From Cytobacillus massiliigabonensis (GTDB lineage: Bacteria; Bacillota; Bacilli; Bacillales; Cytobacillaceae), in the NCBI RefSeq assembly GCF_900199725.1, contig NZ_LT904904.1, positions 2,456,074 to 2,520,073 on the forward strand: a DNA stretch of 64,000 nucleotides. The letters are read 5' to 3'. The notes below the pieces were generated by a model. It had not been told where the DNA came from, searched no databases, and saw only the letters and a list, made by a program, of their open reading frames with translations. Both the position numbers and the translations under genes were made by a program. This document shows, one piece after another, positions 2,600 through 54,597 of the stretch; the first letter of the stretch is position 1, and each line of letters begins with the position of its first letter.

Positions 2600-3634
2600 T
2601 TGCAAACCATTAAGCCGATTAAATTAGGATCTAATAAATCTGGCTCCAATGAAAAACTCGGATCTGCGGAAATGGGGAAGCTATGGGCAACTTATATGGG
2701 GAACAGTATGTCAAAATGTATTTTAAGCTACTATCTTCAGCATGTTGAAGATAGTGATATTAAAACCTTGTTAGAAAATGCATTAAAGTTATGCGATGAA
2801 TTTATGAAAACTACAACAGAAATTTTTCAAAAGGAAAGCTTTCCTATTCCAAAAGGATTTGGCGAAGAGGACGTCAATCTTGGTGCTCCAAGATTATTTG
2901 AGGATGAATTCTATGTTCATTATTTAAAATATACAGCAAAGGCAGGGCTTAGTATTTACAACATCGCGGTTCCACTAGTTTTTCGAAAGGATGTTAATGA
3001 ATTTTTTATTCATTGTTTACATTCCACCATTTCCTTAATGGAGCAGATTAAAGAAATATTAATGAATAAAGGATTTATTATTAAGCCGCCAATTATCCCT
3101 GTGCCAGAAAAAGTAGAGTTTGTACAAAATGATTTTTTAAATGGCTTTTTTGGTCACGTCAGACCTTTACATGCGTTAGAAATCGCTCATTTTTATGATA
3201 ATATTGAAAATAATGTAACTAGTAAAGCACTCATCATGGCATTTGCGCAAGTGGCAAAGGACGAGAAAATAAAGGAATTATTTGAAAGTGGAAGAGACGG
3301 TACACAGAAAAATGTTGAACACTATATGAATATGCTGCTAAAAGAAAATTTACCAGCACCGACTTTTCTAGATGATTTAGTGACAGCTTCTAAATTCTCT
3401 CCATTTTCGGATAAACTAATGCTCTATCATAAAATGGATATGTTTACGATGAAGATCAGAGCTTTTGGAAACTCATTAGCAGTTAATGGCAGGCATGATA
3501 TAGGAGCACTTTATACGAAATCATTTATGAAAGTCGGAGTATTTGTAGAAAATGCAGCGAAAATTATGATCGAAAAGGGCTGGATGGAACAGCCGCCTTA
3601 TGCGATTGATCGAAAAAATTTAGCGTCTGAATAG
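2600..3634 (+). CDS. DUF3231 family protein
   Basis: A 344-residue protein built of two similar halves. Each begins near an ELGSAEMGKLW- or FLNGFFGHVRPL-type segment and continues through helices with regularly spaced His/Glu, as in the DUF3231 family. Members are all-alpha, often found in Bacilli, and of unknown function; a ferritin- or DinB-like bundle is a guess only. TTG 2600 is preferred because AAGGAG lies at 2586; the in-frame TTG at 2525 has no ribosome site. It stands alone between the arsR terminator and the helicase gene. Confidence 0.75.
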   Translation: MQTIKPIKLGSNKSGSNEKLGSAEMGKLWATYMGNSMSKCILSYYLQHVEDSDIKTLLENALKLCDEFMKTTTEIFQKESFPIPKGFGEEDVNLGAPRLFEDEFYVHYLKYTAKAGLSIYNIAVPLVFRKDVNEFFIHCLHSTISLMEQIKEILMNKGFIIKPPIIPVPEKVEFVQNDFLNGFFGHVRPLHALEIAHFYDNIENNVTSKALIMAFAQVAKDEKIKELFESGRDGTQKNVEHYMNMLLKENLPAPTFLDDLVTASKFSPFSDKLMLYHKMDMFTMKIRAFGNSLAVNGRHDIGALYTKSFMKVGVFVENAAKIMIEKGWMEQPPYAIDRKNLASE

Positions 3635-3716
3635 TGGACACCTGTGATGGCATCATACAGCGAATAGTGTTATTCTTTAATCATTAAAGACAAAGAAAGA
3701 TTAAGGGGGAGGGTCT

Positions 3717-6700
3717 TTGAACTTCAAAATAAATCAGAAAGTCATTACAGATAAGTGTGGAATCGTCTCCTATAAACGAGGAGACGCTTTTTATCGTGCA
3801 AATAAAGTAAGTTTTGAACATTTTGATTCAAGCGGCTGCAAAGCCATAGTTGCTGGGAACGAACATTTTTTTGTAACGATTAAAGAAGAAAATAATAGTG
3901 GTTTCTATACAGAATGCAGCTGTCCAAAGCTAGCTTCTTTCGATAAAGACTGTCAGCATATTGCAGCAGTATTAATTGCCATTTGGGAACATCAACGCAA
4001 TGGGGTGATCTCTTCGTCCTCGCAAAAGGATGTGGCGGTATCTGGAAATATTTTTGGGCTCACAGAGGAAATGATGTCAATTTTTAATGACAAGCCGATC
4101 CGTTCAAGTGGTCATCAGCTGCACTTTGAAAATAGGCAAGTTGTTGAAGCTGATTTTTTCTGTAGACCTGTTGCTATTGATAAGGAAAATCTATTATTAG
4201 GAATTGAAATAAATATTGCGACAAATAAAGTGAAAAACATCCGTGAATTTTTGGGTAATATTAAAGAGGGAAAACCAAGCGCTCTTACTAATTCGTTTAC
4301 TTTTGATCCGAATTCCCACTGTCTTCATAGGGAGTCAGATGCTGTGATTGGACAGCTTATTGACGTTGTCAAAGATGAGGACATGTATAGGAATAGTTTA
4401 TCAGATGAATTAAGTAATAGGATAAGCAATGAAATGTTACTTATACCTCCAACATCTTGGGAAAAGCTGCTGCATCTGCTTACAAGAGCACCGGGTGTTA
4501 AGCTATTGTACGATGGGACAATATATGAAAGACTTCAATTATCTGAAAAGACATTGCCATTACAATTTCACTTTGAGGGAACTGATGATAAGGGCTATCT
4601 GTTAAAGATTAAGGGATTGAATCAAATGATCCTCCTTCATTCGTATCGTTCTGTGCTATTTAAAGGTAAAATTACTGAATTAAAAAGTGATGACTGCAAC
4701 CGCCTTTATGAGCTAAAGCAGATGCTAGAGGCATCTGGAACGAATCAAATTCCCATTCATAGAGATCAAATTGATTTTTTTATGGAAAAAGTAGTGCCAG
4801 GTTTGAAGAGATTGGGACATGTACAAATAACGGAAGTGATTTCTAAGCAGTATTTGAAGACACCATTAGTTGCTAAGCTTTACTTGGATCGCGTAAAAAA
4901 TCGTTTACTTGCAGGACTTGAATTCCATTATGACCATATTGTCATTAACCCTCTCGATGACAAAGAAGTTCAGACATCATCTTTACTCATAAGAGATGAT
5001 GCAAAAGAGGAAGCGATTTTACAGTTGATGGAAGACAGCTCTTTTGCAAAGACAGAGGGAGGCTATTTTTTACATAATGAAGAATTAGAGTATGAGTTTT
5101 TAACCTATATGATTCCAAAGCTGCAAAAGCTAGTACAAATCTATGCAACGACAGCTGTAAGAAATCGGATTTTTAGAGAGAATACTCATCCTAAGATACG
5201 AGTTAAAGTGATAAAAGAACGGACGAACTGGCTTGAATTCAAATTTGAAATGGATGGTGTTTCTGACAAGGAAATACGGGAGCTTTTATCGGCTTTGGAA
5301 GAGAAGCGAAAATATTACCGTTTACGAAGCGGATCGCTGCTCTCATTAGAAACAAAGGAATTTCAAGAAATTCAGCGTTCTCTTCATGCACTTCCTGTCC
5401 AAAATGAAGATCTTGAAAGAGGTCTTAATATCCCCATTGTGAGAGGGATCCAACTTATTGACTCCATTGAAGATAGAAAACTATTGACGATGGAGGAATC
5501 ATTTAAACATTTTCTTGAAACATTAAGTAATCCTGGCAGCTTGGATTTTATTATTCCTGCTCGTTTAGAATCAAAATTACGAGACTACCAGAAGACTGGT
5601 TTTAAATGGATGAAGGCTCTTGCAAAGTATGGCTTTGGCGGGATTTTAGCAGATGATATGGGACTTGGGAAAACATTGCAAAGCATTGCATTTATTTTAT
5701 CTGACCTTCCGATTATTCGTAAAAGGAAACAGCCAGCTCTGATTGTTTGTCCATCATCTTTAACATATAACTGGCTGAATGAAATGATGAAATTTGCTCC
5801 TGAACTTCAGGCTGTAGTCATTGATGGAACGAAAACGGAAAGAATAGGTTTACAAAAAAACATATTGGATTTAGATGTTGTTATTACTTCCTACCCACTT
5901 GTAAGAAGAGATATAAAATGGGTAGAGAAACAAATATTCCATACCGTATTTTTTGATGAGGCTCAAGCATTTAAAAATCCGATTACGCAAACAGCACGTG
6001 CGGTAAAACGGATACAGGCTAATCATCGGTTCGCACTAACTGGTACACCTATTGAAAATTCAATAGAGGAATTGTGGTCTATTTTTCATGTGATATTTCC
6101 CGAGCTTTTCCAGGGGTTAAAGGAGTACAGTCATCTTTCTAGAAAAACAATTGCACGAAGGGTCAGTCCATTTTTATTGCGGAGGATGAAGGAGGATGTC
6201 CTTTCAGAGCTGCCTGAAAAAATTGAGTCAATTGAATCAACTGAGCTGCTGCCTAATCAGAAGAAGCTGTATGCAGCATATTTAGCAAAATTAAGACATG
6301 ACACTCTAAAGCATTTGGATAAAGATACTTTACGGAAAAATAAAATCAGAATCCTGGCAGGTTTGACAAGGCTAAGACAGATTTGCTGTCACCCCGCATT
6401 GTTTGTTGACGGCTATAAGGGAGAATCGGCAAAGTTAATACAGCTCTTGCAGATTATTGAGGAATCCAGGCTTTCAGGAAGAAGAGTCCTCATTTTTTCT
6501 CAGTTTACAAAAATGCTTGCACTCATCGGAAAAGAATTAGCCATTCGAGATATGCCGTTTTTTTATCTTGATGGACAAACGCCATCAGAGGAACGAGTAA
6601 AAACTTGCCATCGTTTTAATGAAGGAGAAAGGGATTTCTTTCTCATTTCCTTGAAGGCTGGCGGGACAGGGTTAAATTTAACGGGAGCAGATACCGTCAT

Positions 6701-39529: not shown

Positions 39530-39639
39530 GTAAGAGATAATTAAAGAATCATTAAGCATTTATAAAGAAATTTACAGATTTTGATGTTTGCCACGATGTT
39601 TTACCTATGTTAAAAATAATATGAACTGAATAAGAATGT

Positions 39640-39762
39640 TTTCTAGGGTTCCGCAAATTTATTTGGACTGGTCCGAGAGAAAACTCATAGCGATTGCTGT
39701 GCCACGGAAGGATAAAAGCCTGGGAGATGACTGTTATACAGATCTCTTTGGCTTATTTTTTT
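39640..39762 (+). promoter_or_regulatory. Guanidine-I (ykkC) riboswitch
   Basis: The aptamer shows the conserved blocks of the ykkC RNA: TTCTAGGGTTCCG at 39641-39653, GGACTGGTCCGAGAGAAAAC at 39665-39684, then CACGGAAGGATAAAAGCC and TGGGAGA near 39703-39727. Free guanidine stabilises the aptamer and prevents the terminator that follows, switching on the two downstream SMR genes. The match of sequence and gene context is strong. Confidence 0.95.
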
Positions 39763-51442: not shown

Positions 51443-52165
51443 ATGAGTACTCAAAGTAAGTTACATCCGATTGAAGCTGCACAACAGTTTATCAATAAAC
51501 ATTTTCCTAATTGTCAAGGAGCATTCTTAGCCGGAAGTGTCGTTCGTGGACAATCAACAGAAACATCAGACCTTGATATTATTATTTTTGAGGATAAAAT
51601 ACGTTCTTCTTATAGGGAATCATTAATAGACTTTGGGTGGGCAATTGAGGTTTTTGTACATACCTTAACTTCCAATAAATTATTTTTTGAAAGTGATCGA
51701 AAAAGAGCGAGACCATCTTTGCCAAGGATGGTATCCGAGGGAATCGTTCTAAAAGATGATGGAATTATAGGCTCTATTAAAAAAGAGGCACAAGACTTAT
51801 TAAAGAATGGACCAGAAAAATGGTCATTAGATACTATAATAACAAAGCGCTATTTTATTACAGACGCATTGGATGATTTTATTGGATGTTCGAATCGGGC
51901 AGAAGAACTTTTTATTGCAAATACTCTTGCTGAATTAGCAAGTGAATTTGTTTTAAGAACAAATGACCAATGGATTGGTGCTTCAAAATGGATCGTACGC
52001 TCTTTAATTCATTATAATGAAGAGTTCACAAGAGAATTTGTAGAGGCTTTTGATGTTTTTTATAAAATTGGTGACAAGAGAAAAGTGATTCAATTGGTTG
52101 ATTCTATCTTGCAGCCATATGGTGGACGGCTATTTGATGGATTTTCATTGGGGAAATGTGAATAG
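51443..52165 (+). CDS. Minor nucleotidyltransferase family protein
   Basis: A 240-residue protein with a polymerase-beta-like nucleotidyltransferase core: AGSVVRGQSTETSDLDIIIF (residues about 30-49) gives the GS motif and the DxD metal pair. The remainder is helical, resembling antibiotic- or tRNA-directed nucleotidyltransferases such as the aminoglycoside nucleotidyltransferases, but no specific substrate is evident. ATG 51443 follows GGGGTGAAATGA. It is monocistronic and lies just upstream of the ABC-F leader. Confidence 0.83.
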   Translation: MSTQSKLHPIEAAQQFINKHFPNCQGAFLAGSVVRGQSTETSDLDIIIFEDKIRSSYRESLIDFGWAIEVFVHTLTSNKLFFESDRKRARPSLPRMVSEGIVLKDDGIIGSIKKEAQDLLKNGPEKWSLDTIITKRYFITDALDDFIGCSNRAEELFIANTLAELASEFVLRTNDQWIGASKWIVRSLIHYNEEFTREFVEAFDVFYKIGDKRKVIQLVDSILQPYGGRLFDGFSLGKCE

Positions 52166-52202
52166 AATTTACTAAAGTTTAATGTATCTATATCGTAATT
52201 CA

Positions 52203-52231
52203 TTGACATTTTCAAGTAAACACTTTAAAAT
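52203..52231 (+). promoter_or_regulatory. SigA promoter of the ABC-F leader
   Basis: TTGACA (52203-52208), a 17-base spacer and TAAAAT (52226-52231) form a near-perfect vegetative promoter. Transcription should begin near 52238, giving a leader of about 395 bases before the ABC-F gene. Confidence 0.88.
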
Positions 52232-52270
52232 GTTATTAAATTTTTCTATGCATAGGAGGATTATTAAAAA

Positions 52271-52315
52271 ATGACACACGCAATGAGACTAAGATTCCAA
52301 TCTTTGAACAAGTAA
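52271..52315 (+). CDS. Macrolide-type leader peptide (RLR arrest motif)
   Basis: A 14-residue uORF, MTHAMRLRFQSLNK, behind AGGAGGA. It closely resembles the ErmD-type leader and contains the R-L-R arrest motif that stalls ribosomes when a macrolide occupies the exit tunnel. It is followed by hairpins and two terminators in the same leader. Confidence 0.9.
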   Translation: MTHAMRLRFQSLNK

Positions 52316-52414
52316 TTGAATATGTTCAGGAACTCTGTTAGTGAATGCAGAGTAAATGGGAATAGTCTGTCCATTTTTAATGATCTTCATTTCGAATATA
52401 TTTATGTGTTATGA

Positions 52415-52446
52415 AGAAAGGCGGGTCGTTCTGCCTTTCTTTTTTA
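52415..52446 (+). terminator. Leader terminator 1
   Basis: AGAAAGGC (52415-52422) and GCCTTTCT (52433-52440) form eight perfect pairs with a ten-base loop, then six T. It lies about 180 bases into the leader, after the first uORF. Confidence 0.85.
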
Positions 52447-52482
52447 AATGTAAAGATAGACTAAATCCTTTTACTCAAAAAT

Positions 52483-52514
52483 CACAGGCAGACGTCTGTG
52501 TTTTTTTATTTTAA
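52483..52514 (+). terminator. Leader terminator 2
   Basis: Bases 52483-52500 fold into a seven-pair stem (one G-U) with loop AGAC, followed by TTTTTTTATTTT. It is a second point at which the leader transcript could be cut short. Confidence 0.82.
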
Positions 52515-52534
52515 TATTGAAGGAGAGGAAAGAG

Positions 52535-52558
52535 ATGCAATTTTTATTGTTTCATTGA
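52535..52558 (+). CDS. Second leader peptide, 7 residues
   Basis: uORF MQFLLFH behind a strong AAGGAGAGG, stopping at TGA 52556-52558. Its last codons overlap the first arm of the hairpin that precedes the ABC-F ribosome site, so a ribosome paused there would open that hairpin. Confidence 0.72.
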   Translation: MQFLLFH

Positions 52559-52625
52559 TACGAGCTTGAAATAGAAGCTCGTATCGATCCTAGCTATCGA
52601 TACGAAATCCAAAAAATTTCGGAGG
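52554..52625 (+). promoter_or_regulatory. Erm-like four-segment translational attenuator
   Basis: Arm 1 (GATACGAGCTT, 52557-52567) pairs with arm 2 (AAGCTCGTATC, 52575-52585), extendable to 14 pairs. Arm 2 (CGTATCGAT, 52580-52588) also pairs with arm 3 (ATCGATACG, 52596-52604). Arm 3 (CGAAAT, 52603-52608) pairs with arm 4 (ATTTCG, 52616-52621), which abuts the GGAGG ribosome site. 1:2 with 3:4 is the closed state; 2:3 is the open state. A ribosome stalled in the second uORF would cover arm 1 and open the switch. Confidence 0.78.
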
Positions 52626-52633
52626 TAGCGAAA

Positions 52634-54088
52634 ATGGAACAAATATGTTTTGAAATAGAAAATGTTGAAGTAACTTATTTAGATAAAGAAATATTGAAGA
52701 TTGACAGATTAGCAGTCCATCAATTTGACCGCATTGGCATTGTTGGAAAAAATGGTGCGGGGAAGAGTACATTAATCAAGTTATTATCTGGAAAAATATC
52801 TCCAACAAGTGGAAGAGTGAATCGGTACATTGATTGTGGATTATTTGAACAGCTTGAAGCTCCAGCAAAAGCAGAAGCAGATGTATCCTTACTAGGAAAA
52901 CTGGCAGTTCCGAAACATTCAGAACGATTAAGCGGCGGGGAGCAAACAAGGCTAAAACTTGCCCAATTGTTTACTCACTATTATGAAGCTTTATTAATCG
53001 ACGAGCCAACAACACACTTGGATCAAAAGGGGATTTCATTTCTTCTCGAAGAGCTAGAATATTACTATGGTGCACTTGTGTTAATTAGTCATGATCGCAG
53101 TGTTTTAGATAAACTTATCACCACCATTTGGGAAATAGAAGATGGAAAGGTGAATGTTTATACTGGAAATTATAGTGAATATATGCAGCAAAAGAAATTA
53201 GAGCGTGAACAGCAAAAACAAGCGCATGAACAATACATGAAGGAAAAGAGCCGACTTGAAAAAGCTGCACAAGAAAAAATGAAAAAGGCTGAAAAGATTG
53301 CTCAAGCAGGAAGTATGTCCAAGAAAGAAGCGAATGCAAAACCAAACAAGATGTTTATGACGAAATCAAAAGGAACAAGTCAAAAGGCAGTTCAGCGTGC
53401 AGCGAAAGCGATTGAACATCGAATGGAGAAACTTCAAGAAGTTGATGCAGTACAAGTGGAAAGAAAAGTCATCTTTCGTCAGTCTGAAACATTAGAATTG
53501 CATAATAAGTTTCCGATAATGGCTGACCAGCTCACTCTTCACGTGGCAGGTAAAGTATTATTGGAAAAGGTAAGTTTCCAACTGCCTCTAGGTAAAAAAA
53601 TTGCGATTACTGGCAGCAATGGCAGTGGAAAGAGTACACTGCTTCATCTGATTGCGAATAAGACGGAAGGAATTACAGTTTCTCCAAAAGCTAAGATTGG
53701 CTGCTTCCGCCAAATGAGCTATCAATTTTCAAGTAATGAAACAGTACTCCAGTTTTTGAAAAATCGTTCAGACTATGATGAAGGTTTTTTAAGAAGTGTA
53801 TTACATGCCATGCACTTTACGGGTACAGACATACGAAAAAGGGTGGAATCATTAAGTGGTGGAGAAGCGATTCGCCTCCAGCTTTGCCAGCTGTTTTTAG
53901 GGAAATATAATATCTTATTGTTAGACGAACCGACCAATTTTTTAGATGTACCTACTATTGAGGCATTAGAACAATTTATTGCTGCATATGAAGGAACGAT
54001 TATTTTTGTATCCCATGATCGTGCATTCATAAATAACACTGCAGACATTGAGTTTCATATTGCGAATAAAAAATTAAATCAAGTATAA
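52634..54088 (+). CDS. ABC-F ribosomal protection protein (Msr/Vga-like)
   Basis: A 484-residue soluble ABC-F protein with two ATPase domains and no membrane part. Domain 1 has Walker A GKNGAGKST (about 37-45) and signature LSGGEQTR; domain 2 has GSNGSGKST (about 326-334) and LSGGEAIR. Between them lies a Lys/Gln-rich linker (about 190-290) that in this family reaches the ribosomal P/E sites and dislodges drugs. Its length, and the lack of the C-terminal extension seen in VmlR, fit the Msr(A)-like group. ATG 52634 lies eight bases after GGAGG. The leader implies induction by ribosome-targeting antibiotics. Confidence 0.9.
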   Translation: MEQICFEIENVEVTYLDKEILKIDRLAVHQFDRIGIVGKNGAGKSTLIKLLSGKISPTSGRVNRYIDCGLFEQLEAPAKAEADVSLLGKLAVPKHSERLSGGEQTRLKLAQLFTHYYEALLIDEPTTHLDQKGISFLLEELEYYYGALVLISHDRSVLDKLITTIWEIEDGKVNVYTGNYSEYMQQKKLEREQQKQAHEQYMKEKSRLEKAAQEKMKKAEKIAQAGSMSKKEANAKPNKMFMTKSKGTSQKAVQRAAKAIEHRMEKLQEVDAVQVERKVIFRQSETLELHNKFPIMADQLTLHVAGKVLLEKVSFQLPLGKKIAITGSNGSGKSTLLHLIANKTEGITVSPKAKIGCFRQMSYQFSSNETVLQFLKNRSDYDEGFLRSVLHAMHFTGTDIRKRVESLSGGEAIRLQLCQLFLGKYNILLLDEPTNFLDVPTIEALEQFIAAYEGTIIFVSHDRAFINNTADIEFHIANKKLNQV

Positions 54089-54239: not shown

Positions 54240-54249
54240 GGTGAAAAAT

Positions 54250-54597
54250 ATGTTTAATCGTGAATTAGTAAAAGGCAGTACATCGCTCTTATTGCTTCAA
54301 TTGTTAGAGGAGCGGGACATGTATGGCTATGAACTTGTAAAAGAGCTAGAGAAACGAAGCGAGAATGAATTTTCAGTGAAAGAGGGAACTCTTTATCCAG
54401 CGCTTCATAAACTTGAAAAGCAGGAATACATTGAATGCTATTGGCAAGAACAGGAGAAGGGACCGGCTAGGAAGTATTATCGCATAACTGATGCTGGTAA
54501 GGAAATGCTCCTTGAAAAGACACGTGAATGGAATGATTTTGTTTCAGTGATGAACAGGCTGATTGGGAGAAAAAAACATGGAACGGCTGAAGAATGA
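54250..54597 (+). CDS. PadR-family transcriptional regulator
   Basis: A 115-residue winged-helix repressor. It opens with [20 protein letters not shown], followed by [14 protein letters not shown], the wing [18 protein letters not shown] and [17 protein letters not shown]; these are the PadR marks. ATG 54250 follows AGGTGA. It overlaps the next gene by 20 bases. It likely binds the inverted repeat at its own start and the matching one at 55251, so it would control both units. Confidence 0.9.

Follow-up and report, generated by a model that had tools for sequence, protein, structure and literature searches.

The window analysed here, a stretch of 64,000 nucleotides from contig NZ_LT904904.1 of Cytobacillus massiliigabonensis, contains a gene for a 484-residue ABC-F protein that is preceded by a leader with two short upstream open reading frames (uORF1 and uORF2, Table 1). 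The Msr family model NF000168 recognizes this protein with 780.3 bits (curated cut-off 680), the Vga, CplR and Sal models score it under their cut-offs, and among solved structures its best sequence match is the chain 5zlu_EE, which bears the deposited name "Macrolide efflux protein". The closest plasmid relatives (H1–H8) are Msr(G) or Msr(G)-like proteins with 73–79% identity; Msr(G) from Macrococcoides canis is 76.9% identical. By these sequence comparisons the gene, referred to as msr below, is an Msr-family ABC-F ribosomal protection gene of the Msr(G)-like type. Since the protein is an Msr, resistance to macrolides and streptogramin B would be expected instead of resistance to lincosamides or pleuromutilins, which we take to be the spectrum of this family.

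A first-pass annotation of this DNA had proposed a near-consensus SigA promoter, an RLR leader peptide and a second peptide, MQFLLFH, each with a ribosome site, and two intrinsic terminators (T1 and T2). We recovered every one of these elements in place, T2 with its seven T residues by a terminator scan and T1 as a 13-pair hairpin in the computed fold. Transcription would start near position 52238. The same annotation had described an Erm-type four-arm switch whose last arm abuts the Shine–Dalgarno (SD) sequence of msr. Complementarity of arms 1:2, 2:3 and 3:4 is present, but arm 4 does more than abut: the helix GCUAUC:GGUAGC (52593–52598/52624–52629) occludes the final GG of the msr SD and, together with CGAAAU:AUUUCG, makes up 3:4. 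The whole leader folds better than 100 of 100 shuffled sequences (z = −6.79), and both strands of 51900–52900 hold four terminator-like sites, T2 among them, against 0.3 expected in shuffles. As for the promoter, 1000 bases held 2 sites of this kind and shuffled sequence 5.0, so that their number does not exceed chance.

Table 1. Features of the msr leader and its surroundings in the window, and further copies of the uORF1 leader in the same genome
Feature	Position	Strand	Remarks
SigA-type promoter TTGACA-17-TAAAAT	52203–52231	+	11/12 consensus matches
uORF1 ribosome site GGAGGATTATTAAAAA (SD GGAGGA)	52255–52270	+	pairs with 52374–52388 (helix P0); 21-row alignment A2
uORF1 MTHAMRLRFQSLNK	52271–52315	+	ErmDL-like, RLR macrolide-arrest motif
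Hairpin P2 (A: ACTCTG, B: CAGAGT)	52332–52353	+	A (52334–52344) alternatively pairs with T2 5′ arm
B element GAGTAAATGGGA	52350–52361	+	complementary to C at 52466–52476
Intrinsic terminator T1	about 52413–52442	+	13 pairs and T run; hairpin in computed fold; pattern matches 22/26 leaders
C element TCCTTTTACTC	52466–52476	+	
Intrinsic terminator T2	52483–52507 (stem 52483–52500)	+	seven T; predicted regulated terminator
SD AAGGAG and uORF2 MQFLLFH	52520–52558 (ORF 52535–52558)	+	stop TGA; MsrDL-class
Switch arm 1	52554–52567	+	overlaps uORF2 end and stop codon; pairs with 52575–52588
Switch arm 2	52575–52588	+	52579–52588 pairs with 52596–52605 (2:3)
Switch arm 3 GCTATCGATACGAAAT	52593–52608	+	
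Switch arm 4 ATTTCGGAGGTAGC	52616–52629	+	holds msr SD GGAGG (52621–52625)
msr	52634–54088	+	484-residue ABC-F
Terminator-like inverted repeat	52606–52578	−	from switch arms
240-residue protein	51443–52165		upstream of promoter
PadR-like regulator gene	54241–54597		just 3′ of msr
Guanidine-I riboswitch	39632–39728		83.2 bits (gathering 63)
Leader copy L139	G000:C7:347794–347931		before HflX-like gene
Leader copy L140	G000:C7:926653–926791		before Mef-like pump

We call uORF1 with its terminators layer 1, and uORF2 with the four-arm switch layer 2. Relatives were compared at 30 distinct intact Msr loci with at least 67% identity (the window, L001–L025, L027, L033, L034 and L035). Records of the same place (L002/L032, L005/L061, L012/L059, L024/L055, L027/L067, L031/L057 and L035/L068) did not enter alignment A1 twice, and the by-eye examination of uORF2 covered the loci other than L026 (5′ end cut off), L029 and L030 (27% identity). 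All 30 intact loci carry the uORF2 peptide, its SD and the arms about 100 bases 5′ of the msr start, and because the three recur together in this way, chance is untenable as an explanation for layer 2. The switch is also present in seven of seven plasmid loci at 73–79% identity (L075, L076, L233–L237). Among the 14 loci at 62–65% identity (L036–L048, L050) only L043 has it; a covariance-model search added four switch loci at 63–65% identity (L062–L065), and L026 gave no match to this switch model (R1). The distant relatives L049 and L051–L053 lack the arms, and one of them, L052 (44%), has MTASMRLR and MYIVFM in the two peptide positions. Across the order, the covariance model finds the switch in 19 of 397 genomes and 15 of 135 genera. 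Nineteen of its 21 matches, all strong and each in a different genome, stand directly 5′ of msr; of the other two, one precedes mef and the second, a tandem copy in decay, lies 5′ of an msr switch.

Three of the loci seen in these searches are unusual. L237 (CP031730.1), a plasmid labelled Stenotrophomonas (Gammaproteobacteria), combines an Msr(G)-like gene and the uORF2 switch with Lysinibacillus-like neighbours, which would reflect either a transfer or a mislabelled record. L028 (Halobacillus karajensis, 3485–4711; 67% in its best segment and outside the intact-locus count) is a second, broken msr that follows a broken erm and has neither lock nor an R1 match. At L060 (G394:C1:4623697–4626820), tblastn suggests a partial N-terminal repeat within msr beside a decayed tandem uORF2 switch.

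The peptide itself was examined in A1, whose 30 rows comprise 29 of the intact loci (without L027) and L043. With positions numbered backwards from the stop, every row has L at −4, written with four codons; −3 is L in 29 rows and F in one; −2 is F throughout (TTT 17, TTC 13); and −1 is F (17), Y (11) or H (2). This retention of residues by way of synonymous codons indicates that the uORF2 peptide is under purifying selection. The register recalls MsrDL (MYLIFM-stop), the peptide whose stalling before msrD is experimental, with L3 and I4 critical and F5 clashing with release factors (PMC10314930). The window and MsrDL have L-[IL]-F-x-stop in common, and L-L-F-[FYH]-stop is found in 29 rows and L-F-F-H in one, I to L being a conservative change. 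MsrDL has six residues, and in msrDL a UAA stop is prevalent, with UAG or UGA lowering inducibility (PMC10314930). The window peptide has seven residues and ends in UGA; among the 30 rows, 28 have seven or eight residues and two have six, starts are ATG (26), GTG (3) or TTG (1), and stops are UGA (20) or UAA (10). The six-residue forms, MFLLFF and MWLLFF, have an aromatic second residue and align one-to-one with MYLIFM. By its register from the stop uORF2 is an MsrDL-class peptide, and stalling of the seven- and eight-residue forms is putative. The first-pass annotation had singled out uORF2 as the least expected part of the leader; we see in it a member of this peptide class and no oddity.

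The pairing of the arms is equally well preserved in A1. Every one of the 300 cells of helix 2:3 is paired, as are 99.2% of the 359 cells of 3:4 and 94.2% of the 330 cells of 1:2, with all cells paired in the helix that buries the msr SD; controls with partners slid by 1–3 columns gave 12.7–60.1%. The first-pass annotation had staked its proposal on conservation of uORF2 and of arm complementarity in relatives, and both proved to be kept (30 of 30 intact loci; 94.2–100% of cells). L033 carries insertions in arm 1 and, matching them, in arm 2 (one base bulged); they keep 1:2 and weaken 2:3 (−10.0 vs −13.8 kcal/mol in most rows). The arrangement of 1:2 and 3:4 against 2:3, with the SD sequestered by 3:4, is that of an Erm-type translational attenuator. 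Folding of the window RNA is consistent with such a switch: a P site at uORF2 codon 5, 6 or 7 brings the probability of an unpaired msr SD from 0.40 up to 0.78, and a P site at codon 4, or coverage of arm 2 as well, leaves it at 0.40. With arm 1 covered, P(2:3) is predicted to be 0.96. The terminator-like inverted repeat on the minus strand is probably a by-product of the arms.

Layer 1 is built like known RLR leaders, with a short 5′ uORF, an SD and the [RK]-x-[RK] arrest motif (ErmDL sequence for comparison as quoted in PMC10314930). The leader is almost invariant across many genera (86% mean column identity in A2, 21 rows), helices P1 and P2 are conserved, and in P0 the uORF1 SD region pairs downstream with TTTTTTAATAATCTTC. 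Its covariance model (R2) matches 23 of the 30 intact loci, many of which are themselves rows of the model. The T1 pattern finds no match in L008, L009, L013 and L019, of which L008 and L013 show a variant by eye. The antiterminator that we propose would consist of element A paired with the 5′ arm of T2, enclosing the B:C helix. An alternative antiterminator, TCTGTCC paired with the 5′ arm of T1 or T2, was dropped in favour of this one because its probability was 0–0.36 except in L011 (0.76).

A stalled ribosome on uORF1 was modelled by cutting the RNA at nucleotide (nt) 34. Of 26 leaders, 23 could be evaluated for the antiterminator (L015, L018 and L038 have no C/T2 match); L003 and L033 were missed by the leader pattern and are rows of A2 outside the folding sets. 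The predicted antiterminator pairing is at most 0.30 in the free RNA of 19 of the 23 leaders and at least 0.77 in all 23 after the cut. For RNA ending at the T2 stem, the terminator hairpin is predicted at 0.83 or more in 20 of 22 free leaders and at 0.20 or less in 20 of 22 stalled ones. Folding therefore provides the leader with the terminator and mutually exclusive antiterminator of an RLR attenuator, with a weaker effect in the window. Transcription attenuation by RLR leaders is experimental for hflXr (PMC6310831) and for mef(E).

In view of this anatomy, its conservation and the mutually exclusive pairings, we consider it likely that chromosomal msr is controlled by a serial double lock in which uORF1 gates transcription and uORF2 gates translation. 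This division, termination for uORF1 and translation for uORF2, is also what the first-pass annotation had suggested, and it agrees with T-run terminators after uORF1 and none after uORF2, a sequestered msr SD, and folding that favours both switches. We infer stalling, termination, drug response and AND logic from these parts as follows. When no drug is present, uORF1 would be read through, P0 and P2 would fold, and transcription would stop at T2. In the presence of a macrolide, a ribosome stalled at RLR would block P0, so that A could pair with the 5′ arm of T2 outside the B:C helix and RNA polymerase could read past T2. In the resulting full-length message, arms 1:2 and 3:4 would form and 3:4 would hide the msr ribosome site until a ribosome at the end of uORF2 opened it. 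As both locks would have to fire, the gene should be tightly off without drug.

Several results weigh against this scheme. For layer 1, the window has a modest shift, with the antiterminator at 0.63 in free and 0.82 in stalled RNA, which most relatives exceed; L046–L048 reach 0.55–0.77 already as free RNA. The modelled effect is almost independent of the cut site between nt 22 and 40, with only L021 varying (0.54–0.77). T2 departs from the pattern in three leaders: it stays at 1.00 in stalled L002, is 0.29 in L021 whether free or stalled, and reaches only 0.50 in free L011. When the full U tail is included, the minimum-energy structure of the window RNA contains T2 also in the stalled state, and lock 1 would therefore need co-transcriptional timing. 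T1 is not relieved by stalling in most of the 22 leaders evaluated, falling only in L011 (0.16) and L021 (0.04); we rejected it as the regulated terminator, as its hairpin probability hardly changes in the window (0.97 to 0.92). Moreover, the layer-1 module has no match in seven of the 30 intact loci (L004, L012, L014, L016, L017, L020 and L035). For layer 2, double compensatory changes are scarce, with one pair per helix, and 7–256 of 500 shuffles equal the observed measures; such scarcity may be expectable where one arm pairs with two partners. When arm 1 is covered, equilibrium P(2:3) exceeds 0.5 in only eight of the 30 rows. The gain in SD openness exceeds 0.1 in 12 of 30. P(2:3) exceeds 0.5 in 30 of 30 rows when arm 4 is not yet synthesised, and from these models the switch probably acts during synthesis in many relatives, while in the window it could act at equilibrium.

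Three Sporosarcina-type loci (L004, labelled Arthrobacter, L014 and L016) have a different first uORF, MAFLQLY or MGFVQLY, 240–305 bases before msr. It is followed by a long hairpin and terminator that replace the RLR leader, and is possibly an alternative first lock.

The gene order in relatives bears on how the two layers came together. Some relatives resemble the window in having no recognised gene between uORF1 and uORF2; a Mef-like pump lies there in L001, L005–L007, L023 and L027, and an Erm in L018; in L043 Mef is present and the layer-1 module (L126) lies just outside the fetched locus. In 11 of the 14 loci at 62–65% identity, uORF1 is followed by an RlmA-type ribosomal RNA methyltransferase gene and msr, without uORF2; none is shown in L038 and L044. 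Mef has an MLLFY-type switch of its own in L001, L023, L073 and L076, a mef stub is left between such a switch and uORF2 in L034, and broken mef pieces lie between uORF1 and uORF2 in L002, a member of the window's genus. The window has no recognisable gene or mef remnant in the uORF1–uORF2 interval. Most simply, these sequences would go back to an ancestral operon with the order uORF1–gene X–uORF2–msr, and gene X would have been lost in the window.

This history could also mean that only uORF1 senses the drug, with uORF2 left over from a lost mef–msr intergenic region and its switch acting as a static translational damper. The position of uORF2 between mef and msr in L005–L007 and L023 would fit, as would the stub in L034 and the broken mef in L002, which suggest that the window may stem from gene loss, though it holds no remnant itself. 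We regard this explanation as unlikely, given the purifying selection on the peptide and the fact that the arms stay paired also where no gene separates the layers. Relic-like extra switch copies do exist, in L024 and L074, and their arms are visibly decayed; furthermore, the seven loci without a layer-1 module retain layer 2.

A second alternative accepts uORF2 as a sensor and lets it act through transcription attenuation. Streptococcal MsrDL, a peptide of the same class in the same place before msr, controls a terminator in experiments (PMC10314930), and uORF2 contains a TTNTTT motif resembling the msrDL pause motif. In the window, no T-run lies 3′ of the 1:2 or 3:4 hairpin and no plus-strand terminator is called there, which makes termination unlikely as the output of layer 2; the pairing covers the SD instead, and the SD-burying helix is complete in all 30 rows. 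We consider this alternative very unlikely. A third idea is that the leader is chiefly an RNA-stability or ribosome-traffic element with secondary folds, in which a stalled ribosome shields the transcript, as reported for ermC. It does not account for the mutually exclusive pairings that are conserved in each layer and is highly improbable.

The double lock as we propose it combines features that are each already known, namely serial control of msr by two peptides and joint attenuation of transcription and translation. Among the closest known systems is mef(A)/msr(D), called a double-lock system by its authors, in which an RLR peptide comes first (MefAL, MTASMRLR) and MsrDL directly precedes msr (PMC10314930). 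There, mefA lies between the peptides and both act on transcription termination, whereas in the window the two follow each other with no intervening gene and the second is predicted to act on translation through the four-arm switch. The plasmid-borne mef(F)–msr(G) locus of M. canis (NZ_CP046364.1) likewise has the layer-1 module and an MQFLLFF switch before msr(G), but layer 1 stands before mef(F), which separates the layers. The RLR leaders of erm(K)/erm(D) (PMC4335068) and Listeria hflXr/rli80 (PMC6310831) share the 14-residue RLR peptide, the terminator/antiterminator and the 5′ position; they have one layer and another downstream gene. The RYR leader of Bacillus subtilis tlrB (yxjB) attenuates both transcription and translation of a macrolide-resistance gene, through a single peptide for both (PMC6851288), unlike the two peptides and separate RNA switches of the window. 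The vmlR leader (PMC9226507) also precedes a Bacillus ABC-F gene and combines a terminator with an SD-sequestering hairpin; it has one uORF (MIN), responds to PLSA (pleuromutilin, lincosamide, streptogramin A) drugs and serves another ABC-F family, so that the window, with two uORFs and an Msr, is not of the vmlR type. The open-licence literature searched, which did not extend to the supplement of PMC10314930 (msrDL variants), yielded no description of a single gene controlled by an RLR lock on transcription followed by an MsrDL-class lock on translation; it gave no match for MQFLLF and unrelated ones for MLLFY. If our proposal is true, the locus would be a Bacillales counterpart of the streptococcal mefA/msrD lock, with one arrest-peptide class feeding two output mechanisms. 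Because ErmDL stalls with some drugs without C3 cladinose and MsrDL requires cladinose (PMC10314930), it would also offer a small natural system in which to ask whether two locks in series make the response more drug-specific.

The layer-1 leader also stands before many genes other than msr. Within the order, R2 has matches in 127 of 397 genomes (61 of 135 genera); it matches 29 of 36 genomes of the genus and 74 of 398 of the class. We examined 139 copies (59 loci and 80 regions, mostly the best-scoring rather than a random sample, with L136/L150 one place counted twice) and took as the downstream gene the first recognised among the four nearest open reading frames 3′ of the leader (BLAST E ≤ 1e-8 against seven reference proteins). 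Recognised macrolide-resistance-type genes, of at least six kinds, lie 3′ of the leader in 134 copies: Mph 33, Msr 32, RlmA-type 19, Mef-like major facilitator superfamily (MFS) 19, HflX 16, Erm 10 and Mef 5. The HflX reference (L152) is named via a scanned relative, L139, and the Mef-like, Mph and RlmA references each score under the curated cut-off of the named model that fits them best. Five copies have no call: L101 and L107 run into the end of a contig, L095 matches ABC-F weakly, and L159 and L193 gave no match. In the class search, 14 of 14 further copies precede the same gene families. Among 43 layer-1 copies whose retrieved surroundings include an Msr-like gene, eight have the uORF2 switch motif, so that layer 2 is the exception. 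Rfam holds nothing relevant for the window leader at gathering threshold (only sub-gathering scores up to E = 5), and the leader has no Rfam match in nine module loci.

From this distribution we lean, with some reserve, towards viewing the locus as an AND gate of two arrest peptides with differing drug needs, the first half of which would come from a large unnamed leader family wiring a macrolide-defence set of phosphotransferases, ABC-F proteins, rRNA methyltransferases of two kinds, HflX GTPases and efflux pumps. If so, a single exchangeable RNA sensor would serve unrelated resistance mechanisms, genes such as msr and mef would supplement it with a translational sensor of the MsrDL type, and a leader family without Rfam match could by itself reveal unknown macrolide-resistance genes. 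The genome of the window carries three copies of the leader: that of msr, one in front of an HflX-like gene, which TIGR03156 scores at 444 bits against a cut-off of 217, and one in front of a Mef-like pump.

As to the neighbours of the msr locus, the 240-residue protein encoded upstream of the promoter has a nucleotidyltransferase-like start by eye and no NCBIfam match at E ≤ 0.001. The best NCBIfam scores of the PadR-like regulator on the other side are under their cut-offs. A Guanidine-I riboswitch scoring above its gathering threshold lies elsewhere in the window (Table 1).

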